From Chryseobacterium sp. G0186 (GTDB lineage Bacteria; Bacteroidota; Bacteroidia; Flavobacteriales; Weeksellaceae), in assembly GCF_003815675.1 (NCBI RefSeq), contig NZ_CP033918.1, positions 2,976,001-3,040,000 of the forward strand: a stretch of 64,000 bases of DNA, given 5' to 3'. The notes beneath the pieces were generated by a model, which worked only from the letters and a program-made list of their open reading frames with translations, was not told the DNA's origin and ran no database searches. Positions 42,352 to 52,838 of the stretch are shown piece by piece. The first letter of the stretch is position 1, and each line of letters opens with the position of its first letter. Position numbers and translations under genes: made by a program.

Positions 42352-43554
42352 TTAGACAACCACTTCAATCTGATTTCTCAACAAGTCTTCAAATTCGTCT
42401 CTTTTACGGATCAGATGAGCTTTTCCATCCAGAAACAGAACCTCTGCTGGTTTTAATCTTGAATTGAAGTTTGAACTCATTTCAAAACCGTAAGCTCCTG
42501 CATTATGGAATGCAAGGACATCTCCCTCTCTTACTTCATTCAATTTTCTGTCCCATGCAAACGTATCGGTCTCACAGATGTTTCCTACAACGGTATAAAT
42601 TCGTTCTGCTCCTTTTGGATTAGATAAATTTTCAATCAGGTGGTAAGAATCATAGAACATTGGACGGATCAGGTGATTAAATCCAGAGTTTACTCCTACG
42701 AAAACTGTAGCAGTAGTCTGCTTGATCACATTCGCTTTTACTAAAAGATAGCCGCTTTTCCCAACCAGGAATTTTCCAGGTTCAAACCATAGTTCGAATT
42801 TTTTTCCAGTTGTTTTTGAAAACTCAGAAATTACTTTTTCTACTTTTTTACCTAATGTTTTTACATCAGTTTCTTCTTCACTGTCCTGATATGGGATTTT
42901 GAAACCACTTCCCATATCCAGATACTTCAGATTCGGGAAATGCTCAGAAAGTTCCAGCATAATCTCCAAAGCCTGTAGAAATACATCCGGATCCTTGATC
43001 TCACTTCCTGTGTGCATATGAAGACCTTCAACATTCAGGTTGGTACTTTTCATTACTCTTTCAATATGACGAACCTGGTGAATAGAAATACCGAATTTAC
43101 TGTCGATATGCCCCGTTGAAATTTTATAGTTACCACCCGCAAAAATATGCGGGTTAATTCTTACTAAAATTGGATATGTGTTTCCGTATTTATTCCCGAA
43201 TTGTTCAAGAATAGAAATGTTATCAATGTTAATATGAACTCCAAAAGTCATCGCTTCCTCTATCTCTGCCAAGTCAACACAATTTGGAGTAAACAGTATT
43301 TTTTCTTTTGAAAACCCTGCCTTTAGCCCAAGTTTAACTTCATTAATAGATACACAATCCAAAGAAGCGCCCAAGTTCTTGACATATCTAAGGATATTTA
43401 TGTTTGTCAATGCTTTCGCTGCATAGAAGAACTTAGTATGTTTTAAAAAAGAAGATGTAAGTTTCTCGTATTGAACTTTGATGGATTCAGCATCATAAAC
43501 ATACACCGGGGTGCCAAACTCATTGGCAATCTTTAATAATTCTTTTGAATTCAT
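42352..43554 (-). CDS. lysA: Diaminopimelate decarboxylase
   Basis: LysA makes L-lysine from meso-diaminopimelate with PLP. The fold-type III barrel starts with VYVYDAESIKVQYEKL and carries the PLP lysine in FYAAKALTN (usual FYAxKAN), the GLHMHTGSEI motif (His), and the C-terminal CETDTFAWDR with the catalytic Cys, followed by FHNAGAYGFEMSSNFN. ATG 43554 (MNSKELLKIA) fits relatives better than 43563. Just before it lies an intrinsic terminator preceded by a Lys-rich small ORF, so expression is probably attenuated. No other lysine-pathway gene is nearby. Confidence 0.94.
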   Translation of the reverse strand: MNSKELLKIANEFGTPVYVYDAESIKVQYEKLTSSFLKHTKFFYAAKALTNINILRYVKNLGASLDCVSINEVKLGLKAGFSKEKILFTPNCVDLAEIEEAMTFGVHINIDNISILEQFGNKYGNTYPILVRINPHIFAGGNYKISTGHIDSKFGISIHQVRHIERVMKSTNLNVEGLHMHTGSEIKDPDVFLQALEIMLELSEHFPNLKYLDMGSGFKIPYQDSEEETDVKTLGKKVEKVISEFSKTTGKKFELWFEPGKFLVGKSGYLLVKANVIKQTTATVFVGVNSGFNHLIRPMFYDSYHLIENLSNPKGAERIYTVVGNICETDTFAWDRKLNEVREGDVLAFHNAGAYGFEMSSNFNSRLKPAEVLFLDGKAHLIRKRDEFEDLLRNQIEVVV

Positions 43555-43571
43555 AATTTCCATTTTAACAT

Positions 43572-43605
43572 AAAAAAAGGCAGATCCTTCGAAAAAGAGC
43601 CTGCC
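43572..43605 (-). terminator. Terminator in the lysA leader (candidate attenuator)
   Basis: On the minus strand GGCAG (43601-43605) pairs with CTGCC (43579-43583), extended by TCTTT with GAAGGA around a TTC loop, and followed directly by T7 (43572-43578). It lies only 18 bp before the lysA ATG, downstream of the only visible promoter box, so every lysA transcript must pass it. Confidence 0.8.
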
Positions 43606-43637
43606 ACATTAATTATTTTTTATGCAAGACAAGTCTT

Positions 43638-43709
43638 TTAAATATTCCAAACCTTAGAGAACTTTACAGCTCCCTTTTTTCCAGTTTTAATTTGTTTAAA
43701 ATTTTGCAT
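43638..43709 (-). CDS. Putative lysine-rich leader peptide of lysA, 23 aa
   Basis: ATG at 43709 opens a 23-codon frame: MQNFKQIKTGKKGAVKFSKV plus three residues (WNI). It has six lysines, at 5, 8, 11, 12, 16 and 19 (26 percent). It starts about 20 bp after a TATTTTTG box and ends 32 bp before the terminator stem. Codons 11-14 (AAAGGGAGC core at 43669-43680) can pair with GCTCTTTTT (43592-43600), which would compete with the terminator stem. This is the layout of a peptide attenuator, but AAA/AAG codons are common in such AT-rich DNA, so the peptide itself is unproven. Confidence 0.45.
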   Translation of the reverse strand: MQNFKQIKTGKKGAVKFSKVWNI

Positions 43710-43728
43710 TGCTTGATTTTTATTTTTG

Positions 43729-43736
43729 CAAAAATA
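43729..43736 (-). promoter_or_regulatory. -7 box of the lysA leader
   Basis: TATTTTTG on the minus strand, about 20 bp before the leader ORF and 175 bp before lysA. There is no TAnnTTTG box between the terminator and lysA. The -33 element is not evident. Confidence 0.5.
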
Positions 43737-43817
43737 CTATTTATTTTTTATTTTGAGAAAACTGATTTGAAAAGCGTTTTCTTTCTGATAAAATCTTATA
43801 AAGCCTAATTTTCTCTA

Positions 43818-52272: not shown

Positions 52273-52346
52273 TCCTCCTTAGCTCAGTTGGTTAGAGCAT
52301 CTGACTGTTAATCAGAGGGTCGCTGGTTCGAGCCCAGCAGGAGGAG
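52273..52346 (+). tRNA. tRNA-Asn (GUU), first copy
   Basis: The cloverleaf can be drawn: acceptor TCCTCCT with AGGAGGA, D arm GCTCAGTTGGTTAGAGC, anticodon arm TCTGA-CTGTTAA-TCAGA with anticodon GTT, and T arm GCTGG-TTCGAGC-CCAGC. CCA is not encoded; the gene ends in discriminator G and continues CAAA. It has its own promoter and terminator. Confidence 0.97.
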
Positions 52347-52764: not shown

Positions 52765-52838
52765 TCCTCCTTAGCTCAGTTGGTTAGAGCATCTGACTGT
52801 TAATCAGAGGGTCGCTGGTTCGAGCCCAGCAGGAGGAG
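52765..52838 (+). tRNA. tRNA-Asn (GUU), second copy
   Basis: Identical over all 74 nt to the copy at 52273, including anticodon GTT and missing CCA. Its flanks from the -7 box through the terminator are also near-identical, so this is a duplicated transcription unit 492 bp downstream. Confidence 0.97.

Follow-up and report, generated by a model that had tools for sequence, protein, structure and literature searches.

Organization of the lysA leader region

We analyzed a 64,000-nucleotide stretch of the genome of Chryseobacterium sp. G0186, hereafter called the window; the genus belongs to the Weeksellaceae (Flavobacteriales, Bacteroidota; NCBI taxonomy). On the minus strand, lysA is preceded by a short Lys-rich ORF and a terminator hairpin, and the gene upstream of this leader, on the same strand, matches exonucleases of the DEDD/DnaQ type. 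The promoter box, the 23-codon ORF with six lysines and the hairpin with its seven T residues that a first-pass annotation had described before lysA were all present on this strand, and the region is organized as follows.

43729–43736, minus strand: candidate promoter box TATTTTTG (TAnnTTTG), -7 box of the leader promoter
43638–43709, minus strand: leader ORF MQNFKQIKTGKKGAVKFSKVWNI, 23 codons, ATG at 43709 and TAA at 43640–43638
43649–43687, minus strand: hairpin within the ORF, over Lys codons 11–19, candidate RNA polymerase pause hairpin
43622–43640, minus strand: 5' strand of the antiterminator TAAAAGACTTGTCTTGCAT, stop codon and post-stop segment (predicted pairing)
43593–43609, minus strand: 3' strand of the predicted antiterminator ATGTGGCAGGCTCTTTT, which overlaps the terminator's left arm
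43579–43605, minus strand: terminator hairpin GGCAGGCTCTTTTTCGAAGGATCTGCC, -11.8 kcal/mol
43572–43578, minus strand: T7 tract of the terminator
42352–43554, minus strand: lysA, diaminopimelate decarboxylase (TIGR01048 equivalog, 384.5 bits for a cut-off of 297.9)

We take TAnnTTTG to be the Bacteroidota-type consensus of the -7 box. The six Lys codons of the leader ORF are codons 5, 8, 11, 12, 16 and 19. The lysA product of the window is up to 99% identical to the proteins of C. rhizoplanae and others. Two in-frame start codons are available for lysA, ATG 43563, which gives the longest ORF, and ATG 43554; the former relies on a base that is missing in relatives, which keep an ATG equivalent to 43554, and the gene probably starts at 43554.

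No lysine riboswitch (L box) and no T-box reached the Rfam gathering threshold anywhere in the window, and none was matched up to E = 1 between 43540 and 43820, in agreement with the first reading of this DNA. The sub-threshold matches in the leader were L20_leader (18.7 bits vs. a threshold of 58.7) and PK-PYVV (17.4 vs. 65). Elsewhere in the window, we observed a SAM riboswitch (RF00162, 13525–13630, minus strand, 79.5 bits), a Flavo-1 RNA (RF01705, 852–931, plus strand, 45.6 bits) and two tRNA genes of equal score, about 490 bases apart (52273–52346 and 52765–52838, plus strand).

Lysine content and distribution of the leader

Six lysines among the 22 residues that follow Met1 correspond to a binomial probability of 0.005, given that Lys makes up 7.8% of long ORFs in the window; 3 of its 150 short ORFs, leader included, are equally rich in Lys. 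A single Lys-rich ORF is moderately unusual, and it is conservation that decides whether it is real. We examined 80 named lysA loci (79 titled Chryseobacterium and 1 Weeksellaceae), and 66 of them carry the leader directly before lysA, so that the leader ORF is conserved in relatives. The same position was found in 48/48 loci fetched by the peptide, which repeat some species of the named set. At one locus (L107), the best lysA piece covers residues 261–402 only, and the gene may match in two pieces.

The peptide of this first type (C type) was single-copy in 93 of the 118 genomes representing the genus. In a set of 296 genomes from the order, it was detected in 24, 17 in the genus and 7 in the genus g3, and in none outside these two. 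A second type (S type), diverged from the first, came from the lysA upstream regions of the family. Its profile matched 29 genomes among 296 of the family at E < 1e-4, always before lysA (29/29); the weaker matches fetched (E > 0.01) were not beside lysA, and outside the family only weak matches were obtained (E 0.02–0.05), none adjoining lysA. Overall, 183 loci were collected, giving 124 distinct leaders: 96 of C type (GKKG.V.FSKVWN), 27 of S type (KGKKFFSK) and 1 other, distributed in seven genera of the family (g1, g2, g3, g4, g9, g94 and g109). After Met1, Lys makes up 25.6% of the residues in C type and 27.4% in S type. In other families of the order, a Lys-rich leader with a terminator was found in 0/40 lysA regions (from 86 genomes with a match), although more diverged leaders could escape these peptide and profile searches; a terminator alone was present in 4 of these 40 regions and was taken as that of the upstream gene.

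The combination of a Lys-rich short ORF and a terminator was specific to lysA. In the window, 1 of the 42 starts of ORFs of at least 180 aa displayed it, and this one is lysA. A scan of the same type in the 80 lysA loci retained 64 of 295 ORF starts, all 64 being lysA; its thresholds missed 2 of the 66 loci that bear the leader. The terminator alone was found at 3 further starts among the 80 loci, none of them lysA.

The remaining 14 named loci (L027, L031, L038, L051, L056, L059, L063, L064, L065, L069, L070, L071, L075 and L077) keep the exonuclease gene and lysA, and both leader and terminator are missing. Their best T-tailed hairpin reached -7.1 kcal/mol, and 13 of the 14 had one at -2.5 kcal/mol or weaker, or none. 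All 14 carry TAnnTTTG 37–49 nt before the lysA match. On the lysA tree, parsimony requires four changes of leader presence. The same picture was obtained from 70 lysA upstream regions of the family, out of 131 genomes with a lysA match: a T-tailed hairpin at -11 kcal/mol or stronger was present in each of the 30 leader-bearing regions, whereas none better than -8.7 kcal/mol was found in the 40 without a leader, 26 of which have TAnnTTTG within 120 nt of lysA. Leader and terminator are gained or lost together. These leaderless relatives, with a promoter box beside lysA, represent a natural control, and they show that all parts of the switch can disappear together.

In the leader-bearing loci, the 60 nt upstream of the leader start contain TAnnTTTG in 124/124 distinct leaders, for an expectation of 0.018 per 60 nt after mononucleotide shuffling. 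Between the leader stop and +80, this type of box was found in 0/124 leaders, which agrees with the earlier remark that no promoter box separates the hairpin from lysA. Taken together, the ORF, the box, the terminator and the adjacency to lysA are conserved, as the proposal of a lysine-codon attenuator in the first-pass annotation predicts.

Pairings of the terminator and predicted antiterminator

When the RNA between the stop codon and the 3' end of the terminator's left arm was folded, the segment beginning at the stop codon paired with this arm over at least 5 pairs in 90 of the 92 segments scored, a position filter having left out 32 of the 124 leaders. The two failures are long leaders of g9, in which GAGCTG lies inside the ORF. 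Two other leaders (L193 and L245), judged by eye, fit the pairing only in a shifted register. In the alignments, 91.3% of the cells paired in 80 distinct C-type rows vs. 33–57% with slid partners, and 88.7% in 23 S-type rows (the two g9 rows being omitted) vs. 18–60%. Compared to shuffled sequences, the predicted antiterminator had a median z of -2.9 in C type and of -1.6 in S type; no more than one shuffle in 100 equalled its stability in 56/96 and 2/25 leaders, respectively. Antiterminator and terminator are predicted to be mutually exclusive.

The covariation of these stems gave a divided answer. The S-type terminator covaries, its score being reached in 0 of 500 shuffles and its number of pairs changed on both sides in 32 of 500, while the C-type terminator is too conserved for such a test. 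The covariation score of the antiterminator was reached by 101/500 shuffles in C type and 79/500 in S type; it does not clearly beat shuffles and is not convincing. Since the antiterminator strand must also fit the terminator, its change is limited, and no support for the pairing comes from that. The best sign of a putative co-evolution of the antiterminator is the association of two sequence variants: AAGAC was found only with GGCAGG (14/14 alignment rows vs. 12/66, Fisher P 6e-9, uncorrected for kinship). By species, the association held in 16/16 vs. 13/50 of the others, with 9 parsimony changes of the site on the lysA tree. In the fold, the C of AAGAC pairs with the extra G; the window carries the AAGAC variant.

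The first-pass annotation had assigned the antiterminator to codons 11–14 of the ORF. This segment can indeed pair with the left arm, with a duplex energy of -9.6 kcal/mol in the window (12-nt duplex). As the main partner, it was rejected: its median in C type was -6.8 kcal/mol vs. -11.2 kcal/mol for the post-stop segment with its own arm (also -11.2 in the window), and the pairing was not seen in S type, in which codons 13–17 of the ORF gave -4.0 vs. -9.4 kcal/mol for the post-stop segment. The duplexes formed across types (-8.1 kcal/mol for the C segment on the S arm and -8.8 kcal/mol for the S segment on the C arm, vs. -9.2 kcal/mol within S) indicate a specificity that is clear in C type and slight in S type. 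The post-stop segment bound the arm better than any other 15-nt window of the leader and ORF in 59/96 C-type and 21/25 S-type leaders; such a window bound it at least as well in 37/96 and 4/25, respectively. A second-choice partner of the arm may therefore lie in the ORF. In the window, the ORF segment AAAAAGGGAGCTGT (43666–43679, minus strand) resembles the post-stop segment (43628–43640) in its arm pairing, and it may possibly act as a second antiterminator in C type.

Hairpin over the lysine codons

The RNA of both leader types folds into a hairpin that spans the Lys codons. Of its cells, 98% paired in C type vs. 15–67% when slid (69 distinct ORFs), and its covariation score in that type was reached in 14/500 shuffles. 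We then compared its stability with that of synonymous recodings drawn from the codon usage of the window (n = 1000 each) for seven chosen leaders, three of C type and four of S type. Recodings as stable as the native hairpin numbered 4, 0, 5, 7, 27, 56 and 5 of 1000, the value of 4 being that of the ORF stretch of the window. In C type, the inner helix ends just behind a ribosome positioned at the stop codon. This hairpin is a natural candidate for an RNA polymerase pause hairpin.

Conservation of the leader peptide and codons

In S type, the positions with a Lys majority had a mean identity of 0.88 vs. 0.62 for the others; in C type, the values were 0.92 and 0.84, the smaller gap being due to the conservation of the whole C-type peptide. 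The distance from the last Lys to the stop is exactly 4 codons in 96/96 C-type leaders and 5 codons in 23/27 S-type leaders.

Codons 19–22 (AAG GTT TGG AAT, encoding K-V-W-N; 43644–43655 on the minus strand of the window) are invariant at the nucleotide level in 96/96 C-type leaders, as is AGC at -4 to -2 of the leader ATG. The ORF hairpin explains only part of this invariance, and that of codons 20–22 exceeds the needs of lysine sensing. No K-V-W-N-like motif was found in S-type leaders, although the architecture is common to both types. An A at -3 promotes initiation in F. johnsoniae, as described in PMC6847099; the base at -3 is A in 21/27 S-type leaders and G in 96/96 C-type leaders, an argument against optimal initiation in the latter.

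Predicted effect of ribosome position on leader folding

To represent the ribosome, we masked 27 nt of an RNA ending in the terminator loop and measured what fraction of the bases in the left arm pair with the post-stop segment; the run took in all 124 leaders, with profiles from 96 C-type and 25 S-type leaders. In C type, the median pairing was 0.82–0.85 with the A site at codons 2–20, fell to 0.56 at codon 21 and was 0.07–0.21 at codons 22–24. The change was less sharp in S type, from 0.37–0.63 up to codon 22, with 0.37–0.62 at the Lys codons, to 0.00–0.15 at codons 23–26. Other masks, applied to 24 C-type leaders, preserved the trend, which was softer with a smaller mask (0.68 at codon 22, 0.46 at codon 23 and 0.34 at codon 24). 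The profile was also softer for the leader of the window, falling from 0.86–0.88 to 0.20–0.38, and with the ribosome at codons 21–22 the ORF segment took part of the arm pairing (0.5–0.6). These profiles suggest that a stall on the Lys codons would favor antitermination and that completion of the ORF would favor termination. The earlier annotation had noted that a ribosome stalled at lysines 11–12 would cover the pairing segment proposed there; this puzzle dissolves if the antiterminator strand begins with the stop codon and continues beyond it.

With the full-length RNA at equilibrium, the terminator was favored in every ribosome state (0.60–0.89), and the switch must thus be kinetic in this model. 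In the E. coli trp leader, the two hairpins are described as similar in stability (PMC1183508).

Without a ribosome, the predicted antiterminator reached 0.87 in C type and 0.42 in S type. The C-type value means that no protector for untranslated leaders is visible; the ORF hairpin and antiterminator of this type share no strand, and consequently no trp-like protector is predicted when the ribosome is absent. A protector pairing is suggested by the folding of S type. Protector pairings are not equally evident in all attenuators. As a protector in C type, we tried and rejected a helix between ATGCAA at the leader start and the post-stop TTGCAT, which was weakly predicted (expected pairs 0.19).

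Discussion

Very probably, lysA is controlled by a ribosome-mediated transcription attenuator located in its upstream region, which would sense charged lysyl-tRNA. This reading is based on conservation, on co-occurrence, on mutually exclusive pairings and on in silico geometry, from which we infer the translation of the leader, the coupling of transcription and translation and the response to lysine. Transcription would begin just upstream of the leader ORF, and RNA polymerase may pause at the hairpin that covers the Lys codons, awaiting the ribosome. When lysine is ample, the ribosome would reach the stop codon and cover TAAAAGANTTGTC, which begins there; the terminator would form and lysA would be off. 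When lysyl-tRNA is scarce, the ribosome would stall on a Lys codon, the final one being placed 4 (C type) or mostly 5 (S type) codons before the stop. The post-stop segment would then be accessible and could pair with the terminator's left arm, allowing readthrough and the synthesis of the lysA product.

The C-type leader of Chryseobacterium and g3 could also hold a second sensor, its invariant codons 19–22 tuning or arresting the ribosome at the switch point. These codons sit at that exact point, since masking of the antiterminator begins at codon 21; we nevertheless regard a second sensor as unlikely. If true, codon-based attenuation would be combined with a nascent-peptide or Trp-codon input. 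Slightly less likely still is that the translated leader attenuates lysA in response to a signal other than lysine alone, through nascent-peptide arrest or through translation that is slowed in general. The strict invariance of the same codons, beyond what lysine sensing needs and in part due to the ORF hairpin, would be in line with such a signal, but the S type has the same architecture without the K-V-W-N motif, Lys is among its most conserved residues, and the gene that follows the leader is lysA in every fetched locus.

That the product of the ORF is a small functional protein, whose gene ends at its own terminator and leaves lysA to leaky readthrough only, is in our view very unlikely. 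Such a protein would account for the strong amino-acid conservation within C type; it would not account for a single copy per genome always directly before lysA in the fetched loci, nor for a peptide that diverges between genera while its Lys content and stop-codon geometry persist. In addition, no TAnnTTTG lies between leader and lysA, while the leaderless relatives have one. The high nucleotide conservation in C type could also evoke a metabolite-binding riboswitch or a T-box with an accidental ORF, which is highly improbable: no Rfam family reaches its gathering threshold in the leader, and the C and S RNAs have no obvious core in common beyond the ORF hairpin, the predicted stop-codon antiterminator and the terminator. 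Finally, that the hairpin is merely the terminator of the exonuclease gene, which does lie upstream on the same strand, with an ORF arisen by chance, is scarcely credible and is contradicted by the comparison of loci, as two loci (L125 and L128) keep the leader at lysA with no exonuclease match in the fetched stretch, 14/80 keep both genes without leader or terminator, and the leader ORF is conserved.

As a probable ribosome-mediated attenuator, the lysA leader would belong to a class that is already known. With the trp, his and thr attenuators of E. coli and Salmonella, it shares codons for the end product in the leader ORF, a candidate pause-type hairpin within the ORF, an antiterminator predicted to be blocked by the ribosome that completes the leader and an intrinsic terminator before the gene, according to the logic presented in PMC1183508. 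It differs from them by the amino acid and gene concerned (lysine and lysA), by its occurrence in Bacteroidota and by its scattered Lys codons rather than one run. Leaders of the same class are suggested in Flavobacterium psychrophilum, where strong clues of attenuation by leader peptides are reported in front of amino-acid biosynthesis operons; the word lysine is absent from the main text of that report (PMC9723704). Leader-like short ORFs are also noted in Bacteroides (PMC7366714), and the main text of a survey of premature terminators contains neither "Bacteroid-" nor "lysine" (PMC2965389). As presented in PMC10117765, Sinorhizobium meliloti SEP5 is a candidate leader peptide with lysine codons, but it contains six Thr and three Lys codons and concerns another gene in an alphaproteobacterium. 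In other bacteria, lysine controls lysine genes at the RNA level through the L box (PMC12925634), whose aptamer senses free lysine, in contrast to the lysA leader, where none was found; for Actinobacteria, passages of PMC1262725 report that no RNA element for lysine was seen. In the literature searched, which included few subscription papers, no lysine-specific leader-peptide attenuator was found described, and the earlier remark that no such case is known for lysA in Bacteroidota is in agreement with this.

We know of little work on the coupling of ribosome and RNA polymerase in Bacteroidota. These bacteria lack Shine-Dalgarno sequences, as stated in PMC6847099. If our reading is true, a leader family with such a sharp stop-codon geometry, confined to one branch of the phylum in our searches, would imply a close coupling of transcription and translation despite this lack, and the question of coupling would become testable with one reporter. 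An ORF of 23–25 codons would also gain an annotation in many genomes.
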